From Terrisporobacter sp. (GTDB taxonomy: Bacteria > Bacillota_A > Clostridia > Peptostreptococcales > Peptostreptococcaceae), in contig JARKUZ010000023.1 in NCBI GenBank assembly GCA_029851945.1, positions 1 through 47,632 of the forward strand: a stretch of 47,632 nt of DNA. Reading direction: 5' to 3'. Below, one piece after another: positions 12,215-45,994 of the stretch (its first letter is position 1; every line of letters begins with the position of its first letter). The position numbers were made by a program, and so were the translations under genes. The notes below the pieces were generated by a model. That model did not search any database. It was not told where the DNA came from and saw only the letters and a list, made by a program, of their open reading frames with translations.

Positions 12215-13669
12215 GTGGAGTATGTAATAGGTTTAGATTTAGGGACAGGAACAATAAAAGGAATAGCAGTAGATTCTAAGGGAGAAATACTAGTTAAACA
12301 TTCTGAAGGATATAAATTATATACAGAAGGAAATGGTTATTCAGAACAAAATCCAGAAGATTGGTATGAGGCTTCCTTAAAAGTTTTAGAAAAAATAGTA
12401 CTAGATTTAAATGGATATAATCTAAAAGCTATTAGTATATCTGGTCAAATGCATAGTTTAGTACTATTAGATAAGGAATATAATGTAATAAGAAGAAGTA
12501 TTTTATGGAATGATACAAGAAATACAAAAGAATGCAATTACGTTATGGATAGAATGGGAGAAAGAATAATTGATATTACAGGTAATAAGTGCCTTGAAGG
12601 ATTTACTTTACCTAAAATACTATGGGTAAAAGAAAATGAGCCAAGTAATTGGGAAAAAACTTTAAAGTTCTGCATGCCTAAGGATTATTTAGTATTAAAA
12701 TATACAGGAAATATATGCACAGATGTATCAGATGCAGCTGCTACACTAATGTTTGACCTTGAAAAAAAGGAATGGTCAGATGAAATCTTAAATTCTTTAG
12801 GAATAGAGAAGGAGAAGTGCCCTAAGGTATATAACTCCATTGAATCTGTAGGTGAGTTAAATGAAGAAATTAAAAGGAAATTAAATATAAAAGGAAATGT
12901 TAAGATTTTTCCAGCTGGAGCAGATAACCCATGTTCTGCATTAGGATCTGGAATAATAAATGAAAACAAAGCATTACTAAGTATAGGAACATCAGGTGTA
13001 TATCTTCAATATGAGGATAGCTATAAAAATTATAATGGTAAATTACATATGTTTAATAATGTTATACCAAATAGTTACTACTCAATGGGTGTTACCCTTT
13101 CAGCTGGAGATTCATTAAGCTGGTTTAGAAATACTTTTGCTCCGGATAAAAATTTTGATGAAGTTTTAGAAGGAATAGAAGATGTTATGCCGGGCTCAAA
13201 TGGATTATTGTTTGCTCCTTATATTGTTGGAGAAAGAACTCCTTATACAGATAGTAAGGTAAGAGGTACATTTATTGGTGTTGATAAGGTACATGAGTTT
13301 AAAGATTTTGTAAGAGCTGTAGTTGAAGGAATTACATTTTCTTTAAAAGATTGTTTTAATATATATAATAACTGCGATGAAAAAGAAATTATTTCAGTAG
13401 GCGGAGGAGCTAAGTCGAAGGCATGGCTTCAAATACAAGCAGATATATTTAATAAAAAAATAATATCTTTAAAAAATGAAGAAGGCCCTTCATTAGGAGC
13501 AGCAATTGTAGCGGCTGTTTCACTAAATTGGTTTGATTCTTTCGAAGATGCTGTAAAATTAATAGTAAAAGAAGAAGAAAGTTTTTATCCTAATAAAGAA
13601 TTAGTAGAGATATATGAAGAAGTATACAATCGTTATAGAAAAATATATAAGTGTATAAAAAATATATAA
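12215..13669 (+). CDS. xylB: Xylulokinase
   Basis: FGGY-family sugar kinase of 484 residues, phosphorylating D-xylulose to xylulose 5-phosphate, which enters the pentose phosphate or phosphoketolase route. Seen: N-terminal phosphate-binding GLDLGTGTIKG, SGQMHSLVLLD, SILWNDTRNTKE, the ADNPCSALGSG segment, LSIGTSG, and C-terminal SVGGGAKSK. The SGQMH and WND-R motifs suit xylulokinase better than gluconate or glycerol kinase. Start is GTG at 12215, 9 nt after AAGGAGAG. It completes the pathway begun by xylA and ends the operon. Confidence 0.93.
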   Translation: MEYVIGLDLGTGTIKGIAVDSKGEILVKHSEGYKLYTEGNGYSEQNPEDWYEASLKVLEKIVLDLNGYNLKAISISGQMHSLVLLDKEYNVIRRSILWNDTRNTKECNYVMDRMGERIIDITGNKCLEGFTLPKILWVKENEPSNWEKTLKFCMPKDYLVLKYTGNICTDVSDAAATLMFDLEKKEWSDEILNSLGIEKEKCPKVYNSIESVGELNEEIKRKLNIKGNVKIFPAGADNPCSALGSGIINENKALLSIGTSGVYLQYEDSYKNYNGKLHMFNNVIPNSYYSMGVTLSAGDSLSWFRNTFAPDKNFDEVLEGIEDVMPGSNGLLFAPYIVGERTPYTDSKVRGTFIGVDKVHEFKDFVRAVVEGITFSLKDCFNIYNNCDEKEIISVGGGAKSKAWLQIQADIFNKKIISLKNEEGPSLGAAIVAAVSLNWFDSFEDAVKLIVKEEESFYPNKELVEIYEEVYNRYRKIYKCIKNI

Positions 13670-29344: not shown

Positions 29345-30496
29345 ATGTTAGATTTAATAAAATTTGAGTTATATAAAATATTTTCTAAAAAGTCAGTACG
29401 TATAGTTTTACTATTAACTGTGTTATTTGCTGCTTTAAATCCATTTGCTACAAGTATAAACTTGAAATCTAAAGGATTAGATATGGATGATGTGTATACT
29501 GTTATGAAAGAGCATGAAGGAAAAGTAATAACACCAGAAGGAGTAACTAAAGCAGAAGAAATAATAGAAAATTTAAGTCAAAAAGAACAAAAGGGAGAGA
29601 AACTTACTAAAGAAGAAATAGTATATAGATATTTTTTATATGATGCAATAATAATAGATCCCACATATATAGTAAACAATCAATATTATAAAATAGATGA
29701 GATGAAAAATGAAATAAGTAAGTTAGAAAAAGAAAATAAGATAGATACATATGAATATAAAAATATTAAGTTTGTATATGATAAAGTCAAAAATATAGAA
29801 GAAGCAAAATACTACTTCTCATCTGGATGGTTATCAACTACTGATTTTAATGTTATAGCAACTTTAATAACGACAATGATAGCAGTAGGATTAGCTACAA
29901 TGTTTAGTGATGAATATCAAAGTAATAGTGCCCAAATAGTTTTGAGTTGTAAGCGAGGAAAGAATAAGTTAGTCTCATCTAAGATAATATCTGGATTAAT
30001 ATACACAGCTATAGTATTTATTATAATAAATGGTGTGTATATGTTTGGAGCATTGCAATTTGATTTTATAGGATGGGATAAACCTTTAGAATTATTTAAA
30101 TACTATAGAACAACTCCTTTTAACATGAGAATTATTGATTATTATATTGCTGGACTGGGAACTAGCTTTATAGGTGCTATGTTATTTTCTTTAGTAACTA
30201 TGTTAATGTCTTTAATAGTAAAAAATAATATGATATCACTATTACTAAGTTTAGGTATGTATTATACTCCAGCTTTTGTTGGAAGTTTTATTCCTATAGG
30301 CTCTGTAGCAAGAATTTTTAGTGAAATAAATTTAGCAGAAGCTGTAAGAATAGTGAGTATGTTTAGAGGTACGAGTACTTATAATATTTTTGGGAATCCA
30401 GTATTATATTCAACTGTATTAATAAGTTTGGTAGTGGTATCTATACCAGTTGTAATATACTTAATAAAATATTTTGGAAAAAGACAAGCTATATAA
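29345..30496 (+). CDS. ABC-2-type transporter permease
   Basis: 383 residues. An N-terminal helix (about 19-35), then a large extracytoplasmic charged region (about 40-160, rich in Lys/Glu), then about five helices clustered in the C-terminal two-thirds. This layout is common for permeases partnering YxlF/BcrA-like ATPases. It is the last gene of the ECF-ABC unit. Substrate not determinable. I see no convincing terminator directly after it; a 29-nt repeat follows 6 nt after the stop. Confidence 0.8.
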   Translation: MLDLIKFELYKIFSKKSVRIVLLLTVLFAALNPFATSINLKSKGLDMDDVYTVMKEHEGKVITPEGVTKAEEIIENLSQKEQKGEKLTKEEIVYRYFLYDAIIIDPTYIVNNQYYKIDEMKNEISKLEKENKIDTYEYKNIKFVYDKVKNIEEAKYYFSSGWLSTTDFNVIATLITTMIAVGLATMFSDEYQSNSAQIVLSCKRGKNKLVSSKIISGLIYTAIVFIIINGVYMFGALQFDFIGWDKPLELFKYYRTTPFNMRIIDYYIAGLGTSFIGAMLFSLVTMLMSLIVKNNMISLLLSLGMYYTPAFVGSFIPIGSVARIFSEINLAEAVRIVSMFRGTSTYNIFGNPVLYSTVLISLVVVSIPVVIYLIKYFGKRQAI

Positions 30497-30502
30497 GAGC
30501 TA

Positions 30503-30531
30503 AAGGTTGTCCCAAAAATGTCACACCCTTT
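30503..30531 (+). repeat. 29-nt direct repeat, copy A
   Basis: Identical to 31442-31470. Starts AAGGTTGTCCC and ends GTCACACCCTTT; the ends form an imperfect inverted repeat (AAGGTTGT with ACACCCTT). It flanks the gene at 30709. Confidence 0.9.
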
Positions 30532-30708: not shown

Positions 30709-31305
30709 ATGGAAAGAAATTATTGGGAAGAATACTGGGATAATTATTATAAGTTTATGGCTGTATACCTTAGAGAGTTACAAGATGCATATCCTGATGT
30801 GGACATAAAAAGTGAATACGTAGAAGTTGCTAACTTATTTGAGCCTTCTATGCCTCTTGAATATTACGATAGTGATGACGAATATGATGACTATGATGAT
30901 TATGACGAATATGATGATGGTGGTTATGACTATTCACAAGAAGATAACGATCCACCTTTTATATCACCTGTTGGTGGGCAATCTGCTACACCTTTTACAC
31001 TACCTAACTTACCTGGTGGTGGTCAATTTGGTGCTCCATCTATATCACCTGGTGGCGGGCAATCTGCTACACCTTTTATATCACCTGGTGGAGGACAATT
31101 TACTATAAATAACTGTAGAAGAATGGCGATAGTTAGGATAGTAATGAGGAGAGGTTTTACCCCTTCTAATTTCTATATGGTAGTAGATAGAGCTGATAAT
31201 AGAAGTATTCAAGGATTTAGAATAGCTTGCCAATCTGGTACAATTAGATTTGTGCCAATGGCTGTAGAATATAGAAATATTAACCTTATAGAATGTGCAT
31301 TTTAG
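30709..31305 (+). CDS. Low-complexity Asp/Tyr- and GGGQ-repeat protein, possibly spore/surface
   Basis: 198 residues in three parts: an aromatic N-terminus (WEEYWDNYYKFMAVYLRELQ), an acidic Asp/Tyr tract (about 54-75) and imperfect repeats of about 12 residues built on ISPGGGQSATPF (about 83-130), ending in a folded C-terminus with basic residues (RRMAIVRIVMRRGF) and two cysteines. No signal peptide or membrane helix. I do not recognise the family. The composition recalls spore coat/exosporium or other surface-layer proteins of Clostridia, which is only a guess. The gene stands alone between two 29-nt direct repeats. AAAAGGGG precedes the ATG. Confidence 0.65.
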   Translation: MERNYWEEYWDNYYKFMAVYLRELQDAYPDVDIKSEYVEVANLFEPSMPLEYYDSDDEYDDYDDYDEYDDGGYDYSQEDNDPPFISPVGGQSATPFTLPNLPGGGQFGAPSISPGGGQSATPFISPGGGQFTINNCRRMAIVRIVMRRGFTPSNFYMVVDRADNRSIQGFRIACQSGTIRFVPMAVEYRNINLIECAF

Positions 31306-31421: not shown

Positions 31422-31441
31422 TTGAAGTTATATGAAATTCC

Positions 31442-31470
31442 AAGGTTGTCCCAAAAATGTCACACCCTTT
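31442..31470 (+). repeat. 29-nt direct repeat, copy B
   Basis: Exact copy of 30503-30531 in the same orientation, lying after the terminator of the GGGQ-repeat gene and before the helicase gene. Confidence 0.9.
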
Positions 31471-31582: not shown

Positions 31583-34507
31583 ATGGGAACAGACTATGGA
31601 TTTTCAGGCAAAATACAAGTCTCAGAAAGTAATAATCCAAGAGGACTGTATGTACATCAAAAGGAAGCAATAAAAGCATTAACAGAAAGTAGCAAAAAGA
31701 AGATATTAAAATCTTTATTAGTTATACCAACTGGTGGAGGAAAAACATTTATATCTGTTTATTGGGTGCTAAAAGAAATTATAAATAAAAATAAAAAAGT
31801 ATTGTGGCTAGCACATAGACATGAACTTTTAAACCAAACACTAAAAACAGCAGTTAATAGTGCTTATAAAGATGTTTTACCAAATAGAAAAGAATTTTCT
31901 TATAGAATAATATCTGGCTCAACAGCACATGATAATTCCGTTAATATTGATAAAGATGATGATTTCATTATAGCTAGTAAGGATAGTTTAAATTATAATA
32001 TAGAATTTTTGAAACAATGGCTAGATAGTAATAAAGACAATATTTGTCTAGTAATTGATGAGGCACATCATGCCACTGCAAAATCATATAGAAATATTAT
32101 AAACACGGTACAAAGTTATTGTAAAAATGATTTAAAGATAATAGGTCTTACAGCCACACCTATGAGAACTTGTGAAAAAGAAAAAGGGTTATTAGGTAAA
32201 ATTTTCGAAGATGGAATTAGTTATAGTGTAGATTTAAAGACTCTTATAAATAATGGAATTTTATCAAAACCTATAATAAGAGATTTAAAAACTGACTTTA
32301 AAATGAAGAGGGAACTTAGCAATAGTGAACTTAATTATCTTAGAAAATTTGCAAATCTTCCAGAAAAAATAGCTAAAGATATAGTATTAAATAAAGAAAG
32401 AAATAGATTTATAGTTGATCATTATATACAAAATAAAAAAGAATACGGTAAGTGTCTAGTATTTGCCATAAATGTAGACCATGCAATATCACTTAATACT
32501 TTATTTAATGATAAAAATATAAAGAGTGATTTTGTTGTATCTAGTATAAAGGATAGCTTTACAGGTTCAACTATTGGTACGGAGGAAAATGAAAGAAAAA
32601 TAAGTGATTTTAGAAATAATAAACTAGATGTATTGATAAATGTAAATATTTTGACAGAGGGAACAGATATACCAGATGTACAAACTGTATTTTTAACAAG
32701 ACCTACAACATCTTCTATATTAATGAATCAGATGATAGGAAGAGGTCTTAGGGGAAAATCAGCAGGAGGTACAGAAAATGCCTATATAGTAAGTTTTATA
32801 GATGATTGGCAGTATAGAATAAATTGGGTTAGCCCAAAAGATTTAATAAAGTGTGGAGAATTTGAAGATGGAGAAGTGGCTAAACGTAAGCTTTCAGAGA
32901 CGCTTGTTCCTATAAAAATGATAGAAGAGTTTACTAAATTTATGGATTCATCAATTGAAAAAAGAATAATGGGTAATAAATATTTAGACTTAGTTCCAGT
33001 AGGCTCATATTATTTTCATATATTTGATGAAGAAGATAATATAGATAAAAACTGTGAGGTTTTAGTTTTTGATAACCTTAGAGAACCATATGAGCAATTA
33101 ATGGAAAATCTATATTCTATATTTAGAAAGTTTAAAACTACCGAAGATAAACTAGATAATAAAACTCTCAATAAGATGTATAGATATATTAAAAATGAGA
33201 TATTTGATGGATATGATTTATCAATTGGATTTAATGAGGAAGATATAAAAGATATATTGTCCTATTATGAATTAACTGAAGAACGCTTAGAGCTAATAGA
33301 TTTTGAAGGTAGAGAAGAATTTGATATTTCAAAGCTGGTATACGAGATAATAGATAATAAATTTAATCGTATAGAAGAAGCCGACTACATAAAAGGTAAA
33401 TGGAATGATACTTCTTTAGGTTGGAAAATATATTTTAATGATGATTTTTTACTGTTCAATAGTGAAATAGATAGAGTTATGAGGAGTATACTTATGGATG
33501 ATTCAGCACATCATAATCCAAAAGTTAAACCTGACCAAATAGATTTTGAAAAATTAAGTTTATATCAGATAAAATTAAGAGATTTAAATTATTGGAGGGA
33601 GTTAACTGATGAAGTTTATAATAAATATAAAGATGAAGAAGGATATTTTGTAAGTGCTAGTAAAAGATATAAAAGTAAGAATAAGAGATATTTCCAAATA
33701 GATCATATTGTGCCATTATCAAAAGGCGGTCTTACTAAAAGAGATAATTTACAATTACTTACAAGGTGGGAAAATCTTATAAAGAAGGATAAACTAGATT
33801 TTAAATTTGATGAATTAGAAGATGAATTTAAAGAAGAGGCATTACTGGAGTCTTATGAAAATCAAGAGGTTAAAAAAGCTGAAGAAATTATAAAAATTCT
33901 TTTAAATAAAGATGAAAACTGTATTACTGCATTAAATGTAAAATCTAGAATACAGTATGATAATGAAAAATATGTGGGCTCAATAAGAACATCAAATAAA
34001 GTATTAAATATTGAACATTACAATATGGAAGCATTATATAATAAATCATATTGTTATATGGCACAAGGTAAATATAAAAAAGCTATTGAGATTGCAGAGG
34101 ACATACTAAGTATATATGCTTATGAAATAGATGCTTTTATTATAATAGCTGATTGTTATTATGAACTAAGAAAATATAATATATCTATTAATTATTATCA
34201 TAAAGCTTTAGATATAGATGAAGATATATGTTGGCCTAATTTTAGATTAGGGTGGATATACTCTAGAAATAGAAGATATGAGGAGTCTAATAAATATTAT
34301 CATAAAGCATTAGAATTGGATAAAGAGTGCTTAGCTACATTAAATAATATAGGTCATAATTTATTTAAAATGAAGGACTATGATAATGCAATAAAATACT
34401 ATGATATGGCATTGGATATAGATTCAGATTATAAATTATGTATTGAAAATAAAAGATTGGCTTTAGAAGAGTTGAAGAAGACAGGAATTGAAATGTTAGT
34501 TAATTAA
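31583..34507 (+). CDS. SF2 helicase-HNH nuclease-TPR fusion protein
   Basis: 974 residues. Residues about 20-400 are an SF2 (RecG/UvrB/DEAD-like) helicase core: Walker A PTGGGKT (49-55), DEAH box (159-162), TAT (190-192) and motif VI QMIGRGLRG (383-391). A middle region (about 400-690) has no name I can give. An HNH nuclease follows: Asp707-His708 in FQIDHIVPLSKGG, Asn722 in DNLQLL, Asn731 in TRWEN. Residues about 765-960 are TPR-like repeats (YHKALDIDEDICWPNFRLGW, YYHKALELD, YYDMALDID). All helicase and HNH catalytic residues appear intact. It is a single-gene unit with its own terminator, 349 nt upstream of cas6. Role in defence or nucleic-acid processing is inferred from domains and position; it is not a known Cas protein. 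Confidence 0.85.
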   Translation: MGTDYGFSGKIQVSESNNPRGLYVHQKEAIKALTESSKKKILKSLLVIPTGGGKTFISVYWVLKEIINKNKKVLWLAHRHELLNQTLKTAVNSAYKDVLPNRKEFSYRIISGSTAHDNSVNIDKDDDFIIASKDSLNYNIEFLKQWLDSNKDNICLVIDEAHHATAKSYRNIINTVQSYCKNDLKIIGLTATPMRTCEKEKGLLGKIFEDGISYSVDLKTLINNGILSKPIIRDLKTDFKMKRELSNSELNYLRKFANLPEKIAKDIVLNKERNRFIVDHYIQNKKEYGKCLVFAINVDHAISLNTLFNDKNIKSDFVVSSIKDSFTGSTIGTEENERKISDFRNNKLDVLINVNILTEGTDIPDVQTVFLTRPTTSSILMNQMIGRGLRGKSAGGTENAYIVSFIDDWQYRINWVSPKDLIKCGEFEDGEVAKRKLSETLVPIKMIEEFTKFMDSSIEKRIMGNKYLDLVPVGSYYFHIFDEEDNIDKNCEVLVFDNLREPYEQLMENLYSIFRKFKTTEDKLDNKTLNKMYRYIKNEIFDGYDLSIGFNEEDIKDILSYYELTEERLELIDFEGREEFDISKLVYEIIDNKFNRIEEADYIKGKWNDTSLGWKIYFNDDFLLFNSEIDRVMRSILMDDSAHHNPKVKPDQIDFEKLSLYQIKLRDLNYWRELTDEVYNKYKDEEGYFVSASKRYKSKNKRYFQIDHIVPLSKGGLTKRDNLQLLTRWENLIKKDKLDFKFDELEDEFKEEALLESYENQEVKKAEEIIKILLNKDENCITALNVKSRIQYDNEKYVGSIRTSNKVLNIEHYNMEALYNKSYCYMAQGKYKKAIEIAEDILSIYAYEIDAFIIIADCYYELRKYNISINYYHKALDIDEDICWPNFRLGWIYSRNRRYEESNKYYHKALELDKECLATLNNIGHNLFKMKDYDNAIKYYDMALDIDSDYKLCIENKRLALEELKKTGIEMLVN

Positions 34508-34557: not shown

Positions 34558-34596
34558 AGGAGTGGAGATAAGTTATTATATCCACTCCTTATTTTA
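34558..34596 (+). terminator. Terminator after the helicase-HNH-TPR gene
   Basis: AGGAGTGGA (34559-34567) pairs with TCCACTCCT (34581-34589) around a 13-nt loop, then TATTTTATAT. Its tail touches the outer degenerate CRISPR repeat of the mini-array. Confidence 0.85.
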
Positions 34597-34678
34597 TATA
34601 ATCCAATGTGGTCTACTATTGAAATTTAATCAGTTAAAATAATAATCTGTTTTACATTCCAATATGGTCTACATAATA
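34594..34678 (-). CRISPR. Degenerate two-repeat mini-CRISPR, candidate crRNA-like regulatory RNA
   Basis: On the minus strand, 34678-34650 matches the array repeat at 23 of 30 positions (one base deleted; ends TTGGAATGTAAAA) and 34623-34594 matches at 19 of 30 (core AGTAGACCACATTGGA). Both share the same two changes against the array repeat: loss of one A in AGAACC and ACTGG changed to ATTGG. Between them is a 26-nt spacer (34649-34624), shorter than the 34-38 nt of the real array. The spacer matches 34766-34791, upstream of cas6, at 20 of 26 positions next to a CCA. This architecture is known from CreA and CreR RNAs of type I systems. Candidate minus-strand promoter: TTGATT, 19 nt, TATTAT, reading from about 34739 downward. 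Transcription is not proven. Confidence 0.75.
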
Positions 34679-34743
34679 AAAGCTATCAGATAATGGAGAT
34701 AAAGTCAAATAATAAGATGCATCTTTACTTTAAAATCAAATAG

Positions 34744-34773
34744 TTTACCATAAATAATAAAACCACAGATAAT
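34744..34773 (+). promoter_or_regulatory. Candidate cas operon promoter
   Basis: TTTACC (34744-34749), 18-nt spacer, GATAAT (34768-34773). It is the best pair I find between the helicase terminator and cas6, and would give a leader of about 75 nt. Its -10 lies inside the protospacer-like site of the mini-CRISPR spacer. Confidence 0.45.
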
Positions 34774-34791
34774 TATCTTATAAGATTATAT
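34763..34791 (+). promoter_or_regulatory. Protospacer-like target of the mini-CRISPR spacer, with CCA PAM
   Basis: CCA at 34763-34765 is followed by CAGATAATTATCTTA. The mini-array spacer reads CAGATTATTATTTTA. Over 26 nt the matches are positions 1-5, 7-11, 13-15, 19-23, 25 and 26; mismatches are 6, 12, 16, 17, 18 and 24. Positions 6, 12, 18 and 24 are the ones flipped out and not read in type I Cascade, leaving only 16 and 17 as true mismatches. CCA is in the expected PAM place for clostridial I-B systems. Confidence 0.65.
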
Positions 34792-34856
34792 TAATTGTTG
34801 CGAATCCCATAATATGTTGCTAATATTTAAGTATAAATACAAAAGGGGAGATAAAT

Positions 34857-35591
34857 ATGAGATTTTGTTTAGATTTTCAACTGGAGAAAAACACTTTTTC
34901 CAAAGATTATAGAAAAATAATTTTAAGTTATATAAAGAAATCATTATGTGAAATATCAGATGGAATATACTATGACAAATTTTTTAAAGATAATATACAA
35001 AAAGACTTTTCCTTTAGTGTTAAGTTTCCTCCAAATTCAAAGTTTACAAAAGATGAGATAATACTTGGAGAGCCTAATATTAAAGTATTATTTACAACAG
35101 ATGATAGAAATAAGACAGGATTTATTTTACAACAGGCTTTCCTAAAGCAACGATATATAAAATTTCTAATCAGCAATAAAAATTCAATTAAACTAAACTC
35201 AATTCAACAATTAAGAAGTCAAAAGATAACAAGTTCCAAAGTAATATTTAAAACATATGGCTTATGTGTAAGAGACCATTGCAAAGAAAGAGATAACAAA
35301 GATATATACTATGTATATAGTGATGAAAAATTTAATGAACAACTGAAAATAGTTTTGAAAAATCAAGCTAAGCAAGGTGGTTTTAATGAAAATATTGTAG
35401 ATGACATGAAATTTACACCACTGAATTGTAAAAAGGTGCTGGTGTCACATTACAATAATTTAATTGATACAACAGTAGGATCTTTTTTATTGGAGGGGAA
35501 TCCTTTGTTTCTTCAATATTTATACAATGTAGGCATGGGAAGTCGCAATACCAGTTTTGGGTATTTAGATATAGTTACACAAGATTTGTAG
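34857..35591 (+). CDS. cas6: CRISPR pre-crRNA endoribonuclease Cas6
   Basis: 244 residues, RAMP superfamily. The C-terminal Gly-rich loop GMGSRNTSFGYLDIV is the recognisable Cas6 signature; the protein opens with the usual first strand MRFCLDFQLEKN. It cuts the array transcript within each repeat, leaving an 8-nt handle (here ATGTAAAT) on each crRNA. First gene of the cas operon, with AGGGGAG 7 nt before the ATG. Its promoter region carries the mini-CRISPR target site, so it may be under Cascade-based autorepression. Confidence 0.88.
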   Translation: MRFCLDFQLEKNTFSKDYRKIILSYIKKSLCEISDGIYYDKFFKDNIQKDFSFSVKFPPNSKFTKDEIILGEPNIKVLFTTDDRNKTGFILQQAFLKQRYIKFLISNKNSIKLNSIQQLRSQKITSSKVIFKTYGLCVRDHCKERDNKDIYYVYSDEKFNEQLKIVLKNQAKQGGFNENIVDDMKFTPLNCKKVLVSHYNNLIDTTVGSFLLEGNPLFLQYLYNVGMGSRNTSFGYLDIVTQDL

Positions 35592-35606
35592 ATAGGGGGT
35601 GATAAA

Positions 35607-37013
35607 TTGAAAACCATATTAGATAATAATGAAAAGTTTGATATAAGATTGGAGCCATCTGATTGGAGATATTCTGCTTCAATCTTAGGTCTTTTAGAGT
35701 ATTTTTCTGAAATAGATCCATTAGGAGAATTTCATGAAATTAAAGGTGATTGTATTGAGTATAGTAGTAAAGCTCTAAGTAAGGATAATTATTTGAAGTT
35801 TGTAGAAATAAAGTATGGTGAAAATCTTCATCATAAGTATGTGGAATCCAAATTAGAAGGATATACGTTTGATGATAAGAATGAAAATAATAAGGATTTT
35901 ATAAAACAAATAAATGAAAAACTTAATGGCAACACCATAATGAAAAAAGTATTTAAAAAAGTCAAATTTGATGGAACTAATAAAAATGAAATTCTATCTT
36001 TAATTGAGGACAATAGAGAAGAATTAACACTTGAAACATTTAGAAATAAACAAGATATGTATAGAAACTACTGTAATACGAACCAATTATTTAATGAATC
36101 TCAAAATTATTGCAGACTAGTGGGATACTATATTGATGCCAATAGAAAATCTAAGTCTACAGGATATGCTTTTAACATGAATAGTTTTATAGGACAAGAT
36201 ATACCGGAGTTTGACTATATACCATTTGCATTTGTAAATGATCGACAATCAATATTTATAAACGATAACTATGAAATAAAAAGGCTACAAGTTTCTAAAA
36301 AAATATTAGAAGATAAGATAAAAGCAGCCAAATCAGATTTAGAATTAGAAAATAAAAAAATAAGTGCAAAATATTCTTTATTTAAAGCCATTATGGAGTC
36401 ATCTGATTTTATTGAATATGATGTGGAGGTTATAGTAAAAGACAGAAATAAGGATTATTTTGAAACGTTATACATAAGAAAACAAAGTATAGATATACTG
36501 AAAAAAATTAATAAAAGTAAAATTGATTATAATTCTTTATGCTTTTCCTATAAGATAAGTGAGGATTACTATATAAATGTGTATGAGAAAGTAATGGAGT
36601 CCATATTAAACAATATACTTTTAGATGAAATTATAGATTTCTTATTAAAGGACAATAGAAATAGCTATATAGTTTATCAGTTAATTAATATAAATGAGTT
36701 AATTAGGGGTGAAAATAAAATGGAAGATAATATGAGAAAAAATATTCATGCTTGTGCCAATGAAGTAATAAGGAAAATTCAAGCAAATAAGTTGGAAAGT
36801 TATAGAAATAAACTTACTAGTTCTATAATATTTAAAGATTATGACAGATTTTGTGAAATTTTATTACAATTATCAAACTATGCAGATGTTTATTTTAGTT
36901 TTGCAGACAAATTATTTATAAATTTTGAAGATAATAAAGATATAGCTTACATGTTTATAAATGCACTAAGTAAAAACAAAATCAATGATAATTCAAATGA
37001 ATCAAATAAATAA
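35607..37013 (+). CDS. cas8b: Type I-B Cascade large subunit Cas8b (Cst1-like)
   Basis: 468 residues. I assign it by position (cas6-X-cas7-cas5), length and an N-terminus (FDIRLEPSDWRYSASILGLLEYF) like Cst1/Cas8b proteins of the Tneap subtype. Large subunits are poorly conserved, so sequence alone is weak evidence. It recognises the PAM and holds the target in Cascade. Start is TTG at 35607, after AGGGGGTGA (35594-35602). An internal ribosome site at 36705-36712 with an in-frame ATG at 36720 would produce a separate small subunit from its last 97 residues. Confidence 0.82.
   Translation: MKTILDNNEKFDIRLEPSDWRYSASILGLLEYFSEIDPLGEFHEIKGDCIEYSSKALSKDNYLKFVEIKYGENLHHKYVESKLEGYTFDDKNENNKDFIKQINEKLNGNTIMKKVFKKVKFDGTNKNEILSLIEDNREELTLETFRNKQDMYRNYCNTNQLFNESQNYCRLVGYYIDANRKSKSTGYAFNMNSFIGQDIPEFDYIPFAFVNDRQSIFINDNYEIKRLQVSKKILEDKIKAAKSDLELENKKISAKYSLFKAIMESSDFIEYDVEVIVKDRNKDYFETLYIRKQSIDILKKINKSKIDYNSLCFSYKISEDYYINVYEKVMESILNNILLDEIIDFLLKDNRNSYIVYQLININELIRGENKMEDNMRKNIHACANEVIRKIQANKLESYRNKLTSSIIFKDYDRFCEILLQLSNYADVYFSFADKLFINFEDNKDIAYMFINALSKNKINDNSNESNK
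36720..37013 (+). CDS. cas11b: Cas11b small subunit, internal translation product of cas8b
   Basis: In-frame ATG at 36720 (residue 372 of Cas8b; MEDNMRKNIHACANEV) lies 7 nt after AGGGGTGA (36705-36712), as strong a ribosome site as those of the other cas genes here. The product is 97 residues, mostly helical, the expected size of Cas11. Independent translation of Cas11 from within the cas8 gene is established for I-B, I-C and I-D systems, and this Cascade has no separate small-subunit gene. Expression here is inferred. Confidence 0.7.
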   Translation: MEDNMRKNIHACANEVIRKIQANKLESYRNKLTSSIIFKDYDRFCEILLQLSNYADVYFSFADKLFINFEDNKDIAYMFINALSKNKINDNSNESNK

Positions 37014-37027
37014 GGGGGATATAAAAT

Positions 37028-37924
37028 ATGAAAAAGAATTCTTTAACATTAACAGCAGTAGCGAATATGACTTCAAATTATTCAGAGGGTCTAGGTAATA
37101 TAGCAAGCGTACAAAAAGTATTTAGAAATAGAAAAGTATACTCTATAAGAAGTAGAGAAAGTTTAAAAAATGCAATCATGGTACAAAGCGGAATGTATGA
37201 TGATTTACAAACAGAAGAAAATGGTGCAACTCAAAAATTAGCAAACCTAGAATTAAATGCATCTAACTGTAGAGCACTTGAAGGTGGATATATGAATACA
37301 AAAGGAACTACAACTATAAGAAAAAGTTCTTTTTATCTAACAGATGCCATATCTTGTGAAAGTTTCGTAAATGAAACAAGATTCCATAATAATTTATACT
37401 TAGCAAGCAACTTAGCTAAAGCAAAAAATATAAATTTACAGGAAAAGGCAGGAGAAGCAGGTCTTATGCCTTATCAATATGAATACGACAAATCTCTAAA
37501 AGTATACAGTATCACTATAGATTTAGAAATGATAGGAAAAGATGAGAATTTTGAAAATGAAGAAGGCTATAAAGAAGCAGATAATAAAGAAAAAGCTGAT
37601 AGAGTAAATTCCATATTAGATGCCATAGAAAATTTAAGCCTTACAGTAAAAGGAAACCTAGACAATGCAGAGCCTGTATTTGTAGTAGGGGGATTATCGA
37701 ATAGAAAAACACATTATTTTGAAAATGTAGTAAAAGTAGAAGAAGGAAGATTGGTCTTATCAGATGATTTAGTAGAAAAAGTATCAAAAGGCTATAATGT
37801 TGGTCTACTAAAAGGAGATACATTTATGAATGAAGGCGAAATCATAGAAAAGTTAAATCCTACTAGTATAATTAAATTTTTTGATCAATTAAGAGAAGAT
37901 GTAAATGCTTACTTTGAGGTATAA
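37028..37924 (+). CDS. cas7: Cascade backbone protein Cas7 (Cst2/DevR family)
   Basis: 298 residues. The N-terminus (SLTLTAVANMTSNYSEGLGN) and the early SIRSRESLKNAIM are typical of the DevR/Cst2 branch of Cas7. Several copies coat the crRNA spacer, with a kink at every sixth base. Very regular codons and a good ribosome site (AAGGGGGA) suggest high expression, as expected for a multi-copy subunit. It lies 14 nt after cas8b and 18 nt before cas5. Confidence 0.92.
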   Translation: MKKNSLTLTAVANMTSNYSEGLGNIASVQKVFRNRKVYSIRSRESLKNAIMVQSGMYDDLQTEENGATQKLANLELNASNCRALEGGYMNTKGTTTIRKSSFYLTDAISCESFVNETRFHNNLYLASNLAKAKNINLQEKAGEAGLMPYQYEYDKSLKVYSITIDLEMIGKDENFENEEGYKEADNKEKADRVNSILDAIENLSLTVKGNLDNAEPVFVVGGLSNRKTHYFENVVKVEEGRLVLSDDLVEKVSKGYNVGLLKGDTFMNEGEIIEKLNPTSIIKFFDQLREDVNAYFEV

Positions 37925-39022
<1,098 letters not shown>

Positions 39023-39028
39023 TTTGAG

Positions 39029-39052
39029 AGCAGTAGGTAATTGCCTACTGCT
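39029..39052 (+). terminator. Hairpin between cas5 and cas3
   Basis: AGCAGTAGG (39029-39037) pairs with CCTACTGCT (39044-39052), 9 bp and a 6-nt loop. There is no T-run, and AAAAAGGAG of cas3 follows at once. More likely an mRNA stability or partial attenuation element that lowers cas3 relative to Cascade than a true terminator. Confidence 0.5.
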
Positions 39053-39067
39053 TAAAAAGGAGTAAAA

Positions 39068-41434
39068 ATGAGGAAAATATATGAAAAGTTATTAGAAGAA
39101 TCTATTATATCATGTATAAAAGAGAAAAACGCAAAGCCAAATATAACAATATTAGAACATACAAATGATTTACTTGATGTATTAGATTTATTATGGGAAC
39201 TAGGATATATAAAAGAGGAACGTATTTATAAATTAGTTCAAGCAGCATGTGTATATCATGATATTGGAAAAATAAATGAAGAATTTCAAAAAAGAGTTAA
39301 TAGTAAAACATTAATAAGATTTAATGAAAATAAAGAAGTAGCTCATAATGTATTATCTGTATATTTTATAGACGATAGTAAATTTGATAACAAAGAAGAT
39401 TATTTTAGAGTAGTAAATGCAGTAATTAATCACCATGATTATTGTGATATAGATGTTGCTATGTCTGATAAAAGTGAAATAATAGAGAAGTTGTTGCTAG
39501 AATTTGAACATAAAAAACTTAAAAAAGCAACTATTAGAAGAGTAGCAAAAATTGCACATGATATAGATTCTATAAAAATAAAAGGTTATCTACATAAATG
39601 TGATTATAGTGCAAGCTCTGGTAATATAGCAGAATACAAAAATGACTTTTTAGAAGAAGTATTGGAAAATGTACTTAATACATGGAAAGAATCAAATGCA
39701 AATGCAAACTGGAATGAATTACAAAAGTTTTGTATAGAAAATAAAGATGAAAACATCATAGCAATAGCTCAGACAGGTATGGGAAAAACAGAAGCAGGAT
39801 TATTATGGATGGGAAATAATAAAGGATTTTTCATATTACCAATAAGAACAGCTATAAATGCTATTTATGATAGAACTAAAAAATATATTTTGGATTATTA
39901 TAAAGATACTTCAAATGAAGAATTAAATCATAAACTAGGATTATTACACTCAAGCTCTTTAGAGTATTTACTCTCTAAGAAAGATGGTGAAAATAGTTAT
40001 TTAGAAACTATAGAAGATGATATAGGTAATAAAGAAAATCAAGAAATAATCAAATATGATAATGAGGCTAAACAATTATCTCTTCCAATAAATATTTCAA
40101 CAATAGATCAATTATTTGATTTTGTATATAAATATCCAGCATATGAATTAAAACTTACAACATTGGCATACTCAAAAGTCGTAATAGATGAAATACAAAT
40201 GTATGGTCCAGATTTACTAGCGTATTTAATATATGGTTTAGAAAAAATAGTAGAACAAGGAGGGAAAGTGGCTATTTTAACTGCTACTCTACCACCATTT
40301 GTAAGAGATTTATTATGTGAAAATATAGATTTTAAAATGAATGAAAATGGATTTGTGGATAATTCAATAAGACATAATTTAAAAACTATAGATGCAAAAA
40401 TCAGCTCAGATGATATATGCAACAAATATAATGAAAATAATGAGAAGGGTATAAGTAATAAAATACTAGTAGTTTGCAATAGTATTACAGAAGCTCAAAA
40501 TTTATATGAAGAGATAGAAGGTAAAATAGGCAATGCAAACTTACATATATTGCATGCTAAATTTATAAAATGCGAGCGTTTAGAAAAAGAATCACAAATT
40601 ATTGATTTTGGTAAAACTTATAAAAAGGATAGTGAAGAGATTGATAAGCAAAGTGGAATCTGGATATCTACATCAATAGTAGAAGCTAGTTTAGATATAG
40701 ATTTTGATTATTTATTTACAGAATTACAAGATTTAAACTCATTATTCCAAAGGCTAGGAAGATGCAATAGAAAAGGTAAAAAAGATAGCAGTGAAACTAA
40801 TTGTTTTGTTTATACTCAAATAGATGAAAGAAGTTTTATAAATGGAGAAAAAGGATATATAGATAGAGATATTTTTAATTTATCAAAAGAAGCTATATGT
40901 TCATGGGATGGACAAATTTCTGAATCTGAAAAAATAGATTTAATTAATAAGTATCTTACTATGGAAAAAATAAAGAATAGTAGTTATATCAAAGAATACA
41001 AAAATACTTATAATTTTATAAAGAATTTGACACCAGATACATTTAAGGCAGATGAAGTTAAACTGAGAAATATATTATCAAAAGATATAATCCCAAGTCC
41101 TATTTATCATAAATATAACGGTGAAATAAAAGAACTAGAATTAATGTTAAATGATAAATCATTGAATTCAAAAGATAAAATACCAGAAAAAATAAAACTA
41201 CAAAATGAATTAAAGAAATATACAGTATCTATTCATCCAAATCATATATCAAACTATTATAGAGCATTAAATAATAAGCTAGCAACAGAATATGATAAGG
41301 TGAGAGTGAGTGATTATGAGTATATACCAGTTATAGAATGTGAATATAATGAAGTAGGATACAGACAAAAGAAATTTAACAATCAAGATAATATGAATTC
41401 TACTTGTAAAAGTATATATGATTTTATGTTCTAA
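39068..41434 (+). CDS. cas3: CRISPR helicase-nuclease Cas3
   Basis: 788 residues. The N-terminal HD nuclease has His31, the HD pair 64-65 (CVYHDIGKINEEF), EVAHNVLS and INHHDYCD. The SF2 helicase follows: QTGMGKT (235-241), DEIQ box (374-377, in VVIDEIQMYG), LTATLPP, and QRLGRCNRKG as motif VI. All catalytic motifs are present, so it should be active in target degradation after recruitment by Cascade. It ends 36 nt before the preferred cas4 start. Ribosome site AAAAAGGAG. Confidence 0.95.
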   Translation: MRKIYEKLLEESIISCIKEKNAKPNITILEHTNDLLDVLDLLWELGYIKEERIYKLVQAACVYHDIGKINEEFQKRVNSKTLIRFNENKEVAHNVLSVYFIDDSKFDNKEDYFRVVNAVINHHDYCDIDVAMSDKSEIIEKLLLEFEHKKLKKATIRRVAKIAHDIDSIKIKGYLHKCDYSASSGNIAEYKNDFLEEVLENVLNTWKESNANANWNELQKFCIENKDENIIAIAQTGMGKTEAGLLWMGNNKGFFILPIRTAINAIYDRTKKYILDYYKDTSNEELNHKLGLLHSSSLEYLLSKKDGENSYLETIEDDIGNKENQEIIKYDNEAKQLSLPINISTIDQLFDFVYKYPAYELKLTTLAYSKVVIDEIQMYGPDLLAYLIYGLEKIVEQGGKVAILTATLPPFVRDLLCENIDFKMNENGFVDNSIRHNLKTIDAKISSDDICNKYNENNEKGISNKILVVCNSITEAQNLYEEIEGKIGNANLHILHAKFIKCERLEKESQIIDFGKTYKKDSEEIDKQSGIWISTSIVEASLDIDFDYLFTELQDLNSLFQRLGRCNRKGKKDSSETNCFVYTQIDERSFINGEKGYIDRDIFNLSKEAICSWDGQISESEKIDLINKYLTMEKIKNSSYIKEYKNTYNFIKNLTPDTFKADEVKLRNILSKDIIPSPIYHKYNGEIKELELMLNDKSLNSKDKIPEKIKLQNELKKYTVSIHPNHISNYYRALNNKLATEYDKVRVSDYEYIPVIECEYNEVGYRQKKFNNQDNMNSTCKSIYDFMF

Positions 41435-41469
41435 ATATGTTTAAAACTTATATTAAAGAGGTGTATTAT

Positions 41470-41964
41470 TTGGAAAAACAAATTACAGGGGTAATGGTAT
41501 ACTACTATGAAGTATGCAAAAGGAAGCTGTGGTATTTTTATCATGAAATACAGATGGAACAAGGAAATGAAAATGTTGAAATAGGAAAAGTATTAGATGA
41601 AGAAACTTATAAAAGAGATAAAAAACATATTAACATAGATAATATTGTAAATATTGACTTTATACGTTCAAAGGGAATATTGCATGAAGTTAAAAAGAGT
41701 AAGAAGATTGAAGAAGCAAGTATACTACAAGTAAAATATTACTTATATTTTTTACATAAAAGAGGGGTTAAGAATATAAAAGGTAAGATAGATTATCCAC
41801 TTCTAAAGCAAAATATAGATATAGAATTAAAAGATGAAGATATGGAAAATATGGAAGAAGTACTAAATAACATACATGACATAGTGATGAAAGACACTCC
41901 ACCAATATTGGATAAGAAAAGAATATGTAAGTCTTGTGCATATTATGATTTATGTTTTATCTAA
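41470..41964 (+). CDS. cas4: CRISPR adaptation exonuclease Cas4
   Basis: 164 residues from TTG at 41470, which lies 6 nt after AAAGAGGTG; the upstream ATG at 41437 has no ribosome site. RecB-like nuclease: early Cys in YYYEVCKRKLWYFYH, motif II/III region HEVKKSKKIEEASILQVKYY (with the QxxxY motif) and three C-terminal cysteines in ICKSCAYYDLC, giving the four-Cys iron-sulfur cluster. It selects and trims prespacers with a correct PAM. Confidence 0.92.
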   Translation: MEKQITGVMVYYYEVCKRKLWYFYHEIQMEQGNENVEIGKVLDEETYKRDKKHINIDNIVNIDFIRSKGILHEVKKSKKIEEASILQVKYYLYFLHKRGVKNIKGKIDYPLLKQNIDIELKDEDMENMEEVLNNIHDIVMKDTPPILDKKRICKSCAYYDLCFI

Positions 41965-41986
41965 ACTAATATAAAAGGGGAAACTT

Positions 41987-42979
41987 ATGAAGAGAAGTTA
42001 TTACATTTATAATAATGGAATTTTAAAAAGACAAGATAATACAATAACATTTATTGATGAAACTGGAGAAAAAAGATATATACCAATAGAAACAGTTAAT
42101 GAAATTTATGTAATGTCTGAGATGGATTTTAATACAAATTTAATTAATTATTTATCTCAATATGGAGTAGTAGTACATTTTTTTAATTATTATAGTTTTT
42201 ACACAGGTACTTTTCAGCCTAGGGAAAAACTAGTTTCTGGAAATCTTTTAGTAAATCAAGTTGAACATTATACTAATGAAGAAAAAAGATTAGATATAGC
42301 TAAGAGATTTATAGATGGTGCAAGTTTTAATATATATCGTAATTTAAGATACTATAATGGTAGAGGAAAAGATGTACAAGTTTATATGGATAAAATAGAA
42401 GAGTTGAGAAAGCAGATACCTAAAAGTAAAAGCATACAAGAGTTAATGGGATATGAAGGTAATATTAGAAAAACATATTATGAGTCATGGAATATTTTAA
42501 TAGACCAAGATATAAATTTTGATAAAAGAGTAAAAAATCCACCTGATAATATGATTAATACATTAATATCTTATGTTAATACATTAGTTTATACAAAGGT
42601 GTTAAGTGCTATATATAATACTCAATTAAATCCTACAGTAAGTTATTTACATGAGCCAGGTAGTAGAAGATTTTCACTAAGTTTGGATATTGCAGAAATA
42701 TTTAAACCTATAATTGGTGATAGACTGATATTTTCTCTACTAAATAAAAAGCAAATAACTGAGAAAAGTTTTACAAAAGATCTTAATTATTTACATTTAA
42801 CAAAAGAAGCATCAAAGACCATAGTAGCAGAGCTTGATAAAAAATTACAAACAACAATAAAACATAAAGAATTAAATAAAAATGTATCCTATGAATATTT
42901 AATGAGATTAGAATGTTATAAGTTAATAAAGCATTTATTAGGAGAAAAAGAATATGAGCCATTTAAAATATGGTGGTAA
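41987..42979 (+). CDS. cas1: CRISPR integrase Cas1
   Basis: 330 residues, type I-B form. Metal ligands are Glu157 in LMGYEGNIRK, His222 in YLHEPGSRRFSL, and Asp234/Glu237 in LSLDIAEIFKPIIGDR. With Cas2 it inserts new spacers at the leader end. Ribosome site AAAAGGGG before the ATG, and cas2 starts 17 nt after its stop. An active-looking integrase fits the long array of identical repeats next door. Confidence 0.96.
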   Translation: MKRSYYIYNNGILKRQDNTITFIDETGEKRYIPIETVNEIYVMSEMDFNTNLINYLSQYGVVVHFFNYYSFYTGTFQPREKLVSGNLLVNQVEHYTNEEKRLDIAKRFIDGASFNIYRNLRYYNGRGKDVQVYMDKIEELRKQIPKSKSIQELMGYEGNIRKTYYESWNILIDQDINFDKRVKNPPDNMINTLISYVNTLVYTKVLSAIYNTQLNPTVSYLHEPGSRRFSLSLDIAEIFKPIIGDRLIFSLLNKKQITEKSFTKDLNYLHLTKEASKTIVAELDKKLQTTIKHKELNKNVSYEYLMRLECYKLIKHLLGEKEYEPFKIWW

Positions 42980-42996
42980 ACTATGGGGGATATACT

Positions 42997-43275
42997 ATGT
43001 ATGTAATTTTAGTTTATGATATAAAAAGTGATGAAGGTGGTCAAAGGGTATTAAGCAAAACTTTTAAAACCTGCAAAAAATATTTATCACATATTCAAAA
43101 TTCAGTTTTTGAAGGGGAGCTATCAAATTCACAAATTGTTAAGCTACAGTATGAATTAAATGATATAATAAGAAGAGATAAAGATTCAATAATTTTGTTT
43201 AAGAGTAGAAGTGATAAGTGGTTAGAAAAGGAAATGTGGGGTATAGATACTGATAAAACTAGTAACTTTATTTAA
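42997..43275 (+). CDS. cas2: CRISPR adaptation protein Cas2
   Basis: 92 residues from ATG 42997, preceded by GGGGGAT at 42985-42991; the ATG at 42970 overlaps the end of cas1 and has no proper ribosome site. Opens with the Cas2 strand MYVILVYDIKSDEGGQR and has the NSVFEGELS segment. It dimerises as the scaffold between two Cas1 dimers. Last cas gene, 178 nt before the first repeat. Confidence 0.95.
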   Translation: MYVILVYDIKSDEGGQRVLSKTFKTCKKYLSHIQNSVFEGELSNSQIVKLQYELNDIIRRDKDSIILFKSRSDKWLEKEMWGIDTDKTSNFI

Positions 43276-43453: not shown

Positions 43454-45994
43454 ATTAAAGTAGAACCATACTGGAATGTAAATCAATTTGACAATACTTT
43501 TATTTAACTATATCATCAATTAAAGTAGAACCATACTGGAATGTAAATAGATAAAAACCTAAGAAAACATATCCGCATCCAAGATTAAAGTAGAACCATA
43601 CTGGAATGTAAATTATTATAAGTTAAATCATTTATTATTTCTGCTTCATTTATTAAAGTAGAACCATACTGGAATGTAAATAAATTATTGCTATATAGAT
43701 TATCCTAGTATTATAAAAATTAAAGTAGAACCATACTGGAATGTAAATTTAGGGGGATGAAAATAGTAATGATAATAATTTCATTAAAGTAGAACCATAC
43801 TGGAATGTAAATTATTAACCACTGCTTTTGACAATAGAATCGAACCAGATTAAAGTAGAACCATACTGGAATGTAAATGCTTTTTTTATTTTTATAAAGA
43901 AAGTGGGTGATTGATTAAAGTAGAACCATACTGGAATGTAAATAGGGTTAATGCAGATGGAACTGCTGACTTATTGTATTAAAGTAGAACCATACTGGAA
44001 TGTAAATCTTATATCTGTATCTGCTCTTACACCATATCTAGTCTATTAAAGTAGAACCATACTGGAATGTAAATAAATAGCAAGTACCTGGAAAAACATA
44101 GAGATAAAAGATTAAAGTAGAACCATACTGGAATGTAAATTCTAATTCATTCCTTTCTTAACATATTTTAATTTTAATTAAAGTAGAACCATACTGGAAT
44201 GTAAATACAGGTCTTATCCGAGTTACTACATTATCTATATTAATTAAAGTAGAACCATACTGGAATGTAAATTGAAAAAGGTGAGGAATATGCTGTATTT
44301 TTATTAAAATTAAAGTAGAACCATACTGGAATGTAAATCTAGGTAACCAACCGTCGCCATTATTTTCAGTCATAATTAAAGTAGAACCATACTGGAATGT
44401 AAATTATATTTAAAGCACATCCTAATAGTGCCATTATTAATTAAAGTAGAACCATACTGGAATGTAAATATTAAAGAGACATAAAGCGAAAGTGAAAACT
44501 GTATGATTAAAGTAGAACCATACTGGAATGTAAATTTATATCCTAGAACTTGTGAAGGAGTGCTATTTTTATATTAAAGTAGAACCATACTGGAATGTAA
44601 ATTAGAAATAGAGTGGGAAAAGAGTATAAGGATATTAATATTAAAGTAGAACCATACTGGAATGTAAATAATATCATCTTTCACATCATGTCGTTCTATT
44701 TTATTATTAAAGTAGAACCATACTGGAATGTAAATAATAACATTATTAAAGGAGAATATATTTGTTCTCCTATTAAAGTAGAACCATACTGGAATGTAAA
44801 TTCATTTTCAGTATTACTATAGTAATCACTATCAATTAATTAAAGTAGAACCATACTGGAATGTAAATGGTTATGGTAAAAAAGGTATGGGTTGGGTTAA
44901 AAATATTAAAGTAGAACCATACTGGAATGTAAATAAGCAAATCCAATGGGCTATTAAATTGAGATATGCTAATTAAAGTAGAACCATACTGGAATGTAAA
45001 TAGTATAGATATGAACGTTATAAGAGAAAGAGCTATTATTAAAGTAGAACCATACTGGAATGTAAATTTGGAATTTCTTCTTCCTGTTCTTTCTTAACTT
45101 TTTATTAAAGTAGAACCATACTGGAATGTAAATGAGGTTAAGGAGCATGTAAGAAATATAGATAATGTTATTAAAGTAGAACCATACTGGAATGTAAATA
45201 TTATTATTTCACTATTATTTTTATCAAATAAATTTAATTAAAGTAGAACCATACTGGAATGTAAATTTTTTCGGAGATACAAAATTAGCAGATTTAACAG
45301 TTATTAAAGTAGAACCATACTGGAATGTAAATTTTTTAATATTGTACAAGTAAATATTATTACAACTAATTAAAGTAGAACCATACTGGAATGTAAATTT
45401 CCTTAAAAAAACCATTTTTTATATTTCTTCGTAGATTAAAGTAGAACCATACTGGAATGTAAATTAGTTTGTAGTAGTTTGAACACAGTTTTTATTTCCA
45501 TTAAAGTAGAACCATACTGGAATGTAAATCGAAGTAATATCTCCATATATTTGTATATCTACTTCAATTAAAGTAGAACCATACTGGAATGTAAATTACG
45601 TATTTTATCATTATCTCTTATAGAACTGTCCTATTAAAGTAGAACCATACTGGAATGTAAATTAACCTCCACAGGAATAAAGTCAGTCTGTACATTTCCA
45701 TTAAAGTAGAACCATACTGGAATGTAAATAGGTCTAGAATCTTTCATTTCATCATTTAACTGAGAATTAAAGTAGAACCATACTGGAATGTAAATTCATA
45801 TTTAACTTCTGAACATTCCTCAAGCCATATAAATTAAAGTAGAACCATACTGGAATGTAAATCTAAATCATCGTTGGATATTAATTTTCTTCGATATCAT
45901 TAAAGTAGAACCATACTGGAATGTAAATGCTAATTGGAGGGATAGATGGCCTGATTATTATAAAATTAAAGTAGAACCATACTGGAATGTAAAT
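43454..45994 (+). CRISPR. CRISPR array, 39 repeats and 38 spacers, type I-B
   Basis: A 30-nt repeat that begins ATTAAAGTAGAACC and ends TGGAATGTAAAT occurs 39 times (first at 43454-43483, last at 45965-45994) with period 64-68 nt. I find no base change in any copy, including the last. The spacers are 34-38 nt and look unrelated to each other. The repeat 3' end gives the 8-nt handle ATGTAAAT, so transcription is on the + strand from the cas2 side. The repeat is only weakly palindromic, as is usual for I-B. Spacer origins could not be searched. Short in-frame peptides from the repeat (IKVEPYWNVN) are not genes. Confidence 0.99.

Follow-up and report, generated by a model that had tools for sequence, protein, structure and literature searches.

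A mini-CRISPR unit before cas6 as a probable CreR-type guide in a Csx8-type I-B system of Terrisporobacter

The cas locus and its relatives

The window, by which the whole analysed stretch of 47,632 nucleotides is meant, carries a complete type I-B system of the Csx8 variant with the full gene set of Cas8a1/Csx8, Cas7/Cst2, Cas5b, Cas3, Cas6b, Cas1b, Cas2 and Cas4. The operon runs in the order cas6-cas8(Csx8)-cas7-cas5-cas3-cas4-cas1-cas2 (34857-43275), and the array then follows:

34857-35591, plus strand: cas6 (Cas6b), first gene of the operon (TIGR01877 above cut-off; Cas6b in PADLOC)
35607-37013, plus strand: cas8 (Cas8a1/Csx8, type I-B; TIGR02670, 521 bits)
37028-37924, plus strand: cas7 (Cst2/DevR; TIGR02585)
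37943-39022, plus strand: cas5b (of the profile models only the general Cas5 one scores above cut-off; PADLOC Cas5b matches over the full length)
39068-41434, plus strand: cas3 (HD and helicase; profile matches and PADLOC)
41437-43275, plus strand: cas4, cas1 and cas2 (profile matches)
43454-45994, plus strand: CRISPR array of 39 exact repeats and 38 spacers of 34-38 nt

Directly upstream of the unit described below, a gene at 31583-34507 encodes a 974-aa SF2 helicase (ResIII/DEAD) with HNH and TPR repeats, possibly a defence gene. A near-identical intergenic repeat (AAGGTTGTCCCAAAAATGTCACACCCTTT) at 30486-30531 and 31425-31470 flanks a small ORF; the ORF at 30709-31305 has internal repeats and no Pfam match. 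In the 1356-aa product of 591-4661, Pfam identifies a Mac-1 domain together with several Ig-like domains.

The Cas8/Csx8 family was searched in overlapping sets of 71 genomes (the family of G002; 8 with matches), 393 genomes (the order; 16), 391 genomes (the class; 6) and 68 genomes (the genus of G459; 8). The closest relative found, L001, belongs to a Terrisporobacter MAG and has a Cas8 96% identical to that of the window; the same MAG has a second Cas8 (L003), 85% identical over the matched part. The next relative, L002, is from Romboutsia timonensis, with a Cas8 71% identical. Altogether 26 Csx8 loci including the window were scanned over the 700 nt before cas6; L035, a sub-threshold Cas8 match with no cas genes by tblastn, and L003/L006, the second Cas8 contig of the sister MAG with no DNA upstream of cas8, were left out.

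Anatomy of the unit

On the minus strand, between the end of the upstream gene at 34507 and cas6, two degenerate copies of the array repeat flank a short spacer, which is matched by a site in the cas6 leader:

34703-34708, minus strand: predicted -35 of the putative creR, TTGACT (TTGACT-N17 is kept in the window, L001 and L002)
34680-34685, minus strand: predicted extended -10 of the putative creR, TGA-TAGCTT (TGn-TAnnTT with 17-nt spacing also in L001, L002, L053 and L054)
34650-34679, minus strand: psiR1, degenerate repeat giving the 5′ handle ATGTAAAA (25/30 against the array repeat in a gapped alignment; kept in L001 and L002)
34623-34649, minus strand: putative CreR spacer, seed CAGAT-N-ATTAT, about 24-27 nt
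about 34594-34622, minus strand: psiR2, degenerate repeat with mainly the 3′-handle part kept (position conserved in relatives)
34559-34588, minus strand: hairpin after psiR2 from RNA folding, a possible terminator, perhaps common with the upstream gene
34763-34765, plus strand: PAM CCA of the target, adjoining the protospacer
34766-34792, plus strand: putative CreR target (protospacer) in the cas6 leader (10/10 seed, 18/20 non-kink positions)
34798-34826, plus strand: preferred predicted cas promoter, TTGCGA-N17-TAATAT with TG before the -10 (identical in L001)

The two degenerate repeats in reverse orientation had been claimed in an earlier note on this DNA, and the claim holds: none of 5,000 dinucleotide shuffles of the 350-nt leader scores as high as psiR1 in local alignment, and the final 8 bases of psiR1 agree with the array handle at 7/8. 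psiR2 taken alone is within chance (492/5,000 shuffles of the leader score equally in local alignment) but its core lies at the equivalent place in all six relatives with the unit. Gapped alignment gives the spacer a length of 24 nt and counting by hand one of 27 nt, short in comparison with the 34-38 nt of the array spacers; the spacers of the seven units described below range from 12 to 25 nt by gapped alignment. The fold of the whole predicted RNA gives z = -1.57, with 11/200 shuffles folding equally well. A terminator scan listed none at the hairpin after psiR2, where the minus strand has no T run, and Rfam and tRNA scans of the window gave no match.

Both degenerate repeats also carry the common one-base loss and C-to-T change against the window array repeat that had been noted before. 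CATACTGG is the repeat of the Terrisporobacter-type arrays, with C in the window array (39 exact copies) and in that of L003, and CATATTGG is the version in the other related arrays (L002, L022 and L024) as well as in the psiR1s of the window, L001 and L002. Since the arrays of L002, L022 and L024 have T, this is probably the older state, and the degenerate repeats probably keep the older repeat base.

The guide-target match in the cas6 leader

The target begins 91 nt before cas6, which starts 64 nt past the target end. On re-check, spacer and target pair at 20/26 positions with mismatches at 6, 12, 16, 17, 18 and 24 and with CCA at the PAM position, just as first described, and all ten seed bases (1-5 and 7-11) are paired. 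Shuffled spacers reached 18/20 non-kink positions beside CCA or CCT within 350 nt in 0/20,000 trials and had a best site with a full seed in 12/20,000; with the PAM requirement dropped, 0/2,000 matched as well. The best of the 38 real array spacers against the leader reaches 13/20 non-kink positions, and the target is the only CCN site with at least 9/10 seed bases for the putative CreR spacer in the whole 47.6 kb. CCA and CCT are reported as confirmed PAMs in type I-B of Clostridioides difficile (PMC8406132, available text). Among the phage protospacer matches listed for the window array (best 30 of 482; weak, probably chance) there was no convincing protospacer from which a PAM could be derived; the first 25-27 nt of 4/38 array spacers had 0 matches in viral contigs, and a plasmid search with the leader and cas6 gave no match.

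Promoters and reading frames of the leader

The predicted creR promoter would start the RNA at about 34673, and therefore inside psiR1. L053 and L054 have TTGTAA-N17-TATATT with TG before the -10 as predicted creR promoter. For the cas operon, the element at 34798-34826, with a predicted transcript start at about 34833, ties at 9 with other candidates in the scoring and is preferred because it is conserved: in L002, TGnTAnnAT ends at an equal distance (-31) from the start codon, and L022 has a similar element. Its hexamers score 8/12 and are hence unlisted in the simple promoter scan, the limit of which is 9/12. GATAAT at 34768-34773, which the earlier note had taken for the cas -10, is probably not this element. 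Its score of 9/12 is shared in kind by seven further promoter-like sites, 8 in all, where shuffled sequence gives a mean of 3.9 (sd 1.8). It also lies within the changing seed and is for this reason not kept in L001 and L002.

In L053 and L054 a predicted strong promoter, TTGACA-N17-TATTAT (11/12), stands beside the target, which runs into or up to the predicted -35. The window target ends 5 nt before the predicted cas -35, so that L053 and L054 would allow a more direct block than the window does. In L027 the target is on the opposite strand and seems to follow closely after the predicted promoter of that locus.

A similar unit with another aim is found at L052 (14876-15308, minus strand, G777). 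There a mini-CRISPR with a hairpin behind it has a 10/10 seed beside the PAM CCG, and its target immediately precedes a separate HTH-like ORF of 46 aa, which is located between array and cas6; the best unconstrained site of its spacer is a palindrome. This unit looks CrePA-like. In the sister locus L051 (3700-3852, G778) the mini-CRISPR, the target and the ORF start are missing together, and a truncated remnant is left.

The best-surviving alternative is that the window guide represses a toxin RNA or a small toxin protein in the leader, as in CreTA or CrePA, which would make Cascade addictive and any effect on cas incidental. The guide anatomy reported for CreTA is identical (PMC8501985, available text), and the L052 unit aims at the start of a small separate gene. 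The window leader argues against it, as the sole plus-strand ORF of at least 20 aa that starts between target and cas6 (34814-34912, 32 aa) begins before the predicted cas transcript start and has no Shine-Dalgarno sequence by eye, and so does the promoter beside the target of L053 and L054, which leads straight into cas6. A 52-aa minus-strand frame (34944-34786) also overlaps the leader. Among leader ORFs of at least 20 aa there is no convincing toxin gene, no mini-ORF preceded by a Shine-Dalgarno sequence was seen in the leader, and cas6 is the next gene. The hidden toxin that had been raised as a second possibility left no sign in these frames, and this explanation is quite improbable, though a non-coding toxin RNA would escape such a check of reading frames.

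Distribution, covariation and the six-base period

A mini-CRISPR directed at its own leader is present in 7/26 loci, the window, L001, L002, L024, L027, L053 and L054, with a seed match of 10/10 in the first six and 9/10 in L054, and with the PAMs CCA (4), CCT (2) and CCG (1). When the 1.4 to 7 kb of upstream DNA from each of the six relatives with the unit and from L022 were compared by tblastn (1e-3) with the helicase-HNH-TPR gene that precedes the window unit, none gave a match, and the unit is preceded by glutamate dehydrogenase in L001 and by an 87-aa ORF in L002. Because the upstream gene differs in relatives that have the unit, the unit goes along with cas rather than with the gene next to it. 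By the criteria used, 19 of the remaining 25 Csx8 loci, L022 (Cas8 67% identical) among them, lack a unit aimed at cas in the 700 nt scanned. Weak matches were not counted in L033 (seed 10/10, 3/10 beyond, repeat tail only 11/18), L028 (9/10 seed, repeat tail 11/18) and L056 (where the spacer merely matched itself in its original position). Mapped on a 26-row Cas8 tree, unit presence needs 4 changes (bootstrap 3-5), a value as low being found in 4/500 shuffles, and the distribution is thus clustered but patchy.

A generic scan covered 30 cas6 loci of the same family (30 of 51 matches), L063 and L069 being without clear orientation. It refound the units of L002 and G035 and gave one new unit, L083 (reverse strand)/L087 at about 13161-13254. 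This eighth mini-CRISPR belongs to a different cas6 locus, where it occupies the 5′ leader and points the same way as cas6. Its target is just upstream of its own predicted TTTACA-N17-TATAAT promoter, and among the first 18 positions those at 6 and 18 are mismatched.

Guide and target seeds match within each locus while differing between loci (CAGAT in the window, TAAAT in L001, TGAAT in L002, TTTAA in L024, TAGAT in L027, TGAAT in L053 and L054). Since unit and leader can be aligned between the window, L001 and L002, the change is a compensating one at one site. When the eight pairs including L083 were permuted, 2/40,320 re-pairings reached the true total, namely the true pairing and the swap of the near-identical L053 and L054. 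Related genomes had been proposed as a check, and in them spacer and target change together with no independent divergence.

Over positions 1-24 of the seven pairs, 21/28 sixth positions are mismatched versus 22/140 elsewhere, and the counts by phase (position modulo 6, from 0 to 5) are 21, 3, 4, 2, 5 and 8 of 28. Ranking the sites by their non-kink positions biases this count towards mismatches at kinks, and the rows are related, so that p-values are only indicative; among the five pairs whose site also ranks best over all 24 positions, the mismatches are 15/20 at kink versus 11/100 at other positions. The top site by non-kink positions, with no PAM asked, is the named target in all seven loci and has CC beside it in 7/7, L027 being tied on total score; a count over the full 24 positions puts a different site ahead in L002 (17 versus 16) and level in L027 (15). 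The reading of the mismatches at 6, 12, 18 and 24 as Cascade kinks is supported across loci, the six-base period being the pattern that would be expected for pairing inside Cascade. Covariation and period together indicate that the guide-target match is kept by selection.

None of 831 near-exact repeats from the 26 loci, when used as guides against their own 300-nt leader, gave a 9/10 seed beside CC. Of the degenerate repeat-like sites, such a match is confined to the seven units and to a single additional weak one in the window, which pairs at 9/10 seed bases and 5/10 beyond. Among 434 control windows of 730 nt elsewhere in the loci, 3/434 combine a handle-like octamer with a full seed and CC, and 0 have a repeat tail of 12/18 in addition; this complete filter passes 7 of the 26 leaders, the six 10/10 units and L052, and misses L054.

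These results bear on the idea that the unit is the functionless, decayed remnant of an old array, the last spacer of which resembles the leader by chance. Degenerate repeats that keep what looks like an older base and a patchy distribution with 4 changes on the Cas8 tree would suit it, but seed-target covariation in several lineages, the six-base mismatch period, the conserved predicted promoter upstream of psiR1 and the 0/434 controls speak against it and make it very unlikely. Least probable of all is a local duplication in AT-rich DNA with no selection for pairing, which the short AT-rich sequences would allow, but which would not put mismatches at 6, 12, 18 and 24, re-match after each seed change, or set CC beside the target in 7/7 loci.

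Proposed mechanism

The mini-CRISPR is thus very probably a CreR of the type I-B system, a guide with which Cascade would repress its own cas operon; this core proposal of the earlier note is strengthened by the covariation and the kink pattern. While the unit, its match and the change of guide with target between species can be read directly from the DNA, we infer transcription, processing, binding and repression as follows. A minus-strand transcript would start near 34673, and Cas6 would cut it at the degenerate repeats to yield a crRNA-like guide with a short spacer. Loaded with this guide, Cascade (Cas8/Csx8, Cas7 and Cas5) would recognise CCA and the adjoining target (34766-34792), which lies a short way ahead of the predicted cas6 -35, hinder RNA polymerase and reduce transcription of the cas operon, and would in this way limit its own synthesis. 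Competing ordinary crRNAs or anti-CRISPR proteins that disable Cascade might lift the brake, a sensing role taken by analogy from the published CreR model, in which both relieve it (PMC12737573 and PMC13131331, available text).

No cutting by Cas3 is expected because the spacer is short and positions 16-17 are unpaired. That such features favour binding over cleavage had been suggested before, and the spacer is indeed near the published length at which cleavage switches to repression: in the available texts, cleavage is lost and repression kept at 24 nt or less in type I-B of Haloarcula hispanica (PMC10989794) and at 26 nt or less in that of Parageobacillus thermoglucosidasius (PMC10551041). 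The latter still cuts at 27 nt with full pairing (PMC10551041), and the unpaired positions 16-17 of the window may therefore matter too.

More tentatively, guide and site may be a pair that turns over quickly, is specific to each lineage and moves together with the cas module in this clade, which would connect every cas operon to none but its own Cascade. The level of cas expression could in that case serve as a readout of how far Cascade is occupied and of anti-CRISPR action, and in the more distant locus L052 the device would have been re-aimed at a separate HTH gene, with Cascade controlling a second regulator. This broader picture is rather less probable than not.

Comparison with known systems

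CreTA consists of an antitoxin guide, CreA, and a toxin RNA, CreT. As far as its description in PMC8501985 goes, it has in common with the window unit two degenerate repeats, a partial match, a seed of 1-5 and 7-11 and a PAM in the target promoter, which is a predicted one in the window; haloarchaeal type I-B CreA needs exactly nucleotides 1-5 and 7-11, positions 6 and 12 being free (PMC8501985). It differs in that the window target lies before cas6, where CreTA has its toxin RNA (PMC8501985). CrePA, in which a CreA guide controls the protein toxin CreP, likewise depends on guide-mediated repression by the Cas effector, as is proposed for the window, but in the window none of the leader ORFs of at least 20 aa makes a plausible small protein gene of its own behind the targeted promoter, and L052 is closer to CrePA in this respect (PMC12737573, available text).

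The likeness to CreR is closest. The original CreR paper of 2023 reportedly described a crRNA-like RNA from a mini-CRISPR. CreR autorepression is known in types I-B, I-E and V-A (PMC13131331, available text), and its published features are a crRNA-like RNA near cas that matches the cas promoter in part, as a rule the absence of a toxin gene, and autorepression that depends on the effector (PMC12737573 and PMC13131331, available text). In contrast to known CreR, the window unit belongs to a Csx8-type I-B system of Clostridia, pairing in several loci here extends beyond the seed as far as about position 23 and is interrupted at each sixth base, and the strand of the guide with respect to cas can be either one. 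Among the literature matches listed for CreR, CreTA and cas regulation, Csx8 systems, Terrisporobacter and Romboutsia are named in none of the titles or opening lines of abstracts, and the original CreR paper may list such loci; Clostridi-, Terrisporobacter and Romboutsia do not occur within PMC8501985 or PMC9458426. RNA-guided autorepression of cas is therefore already known, and the window unit adds to it, as far as checked, a Csx8-type I-B case, which would extend it to such systems of Peptostreptococcaceae and other Clostridia. The comparative signature of seed covariation, sixth-base breaks and CC beside the target is specific enough to find units from sequence, and the natural guide-target pairs offer material for testing the minimal pairing that Cascade needs to repress.
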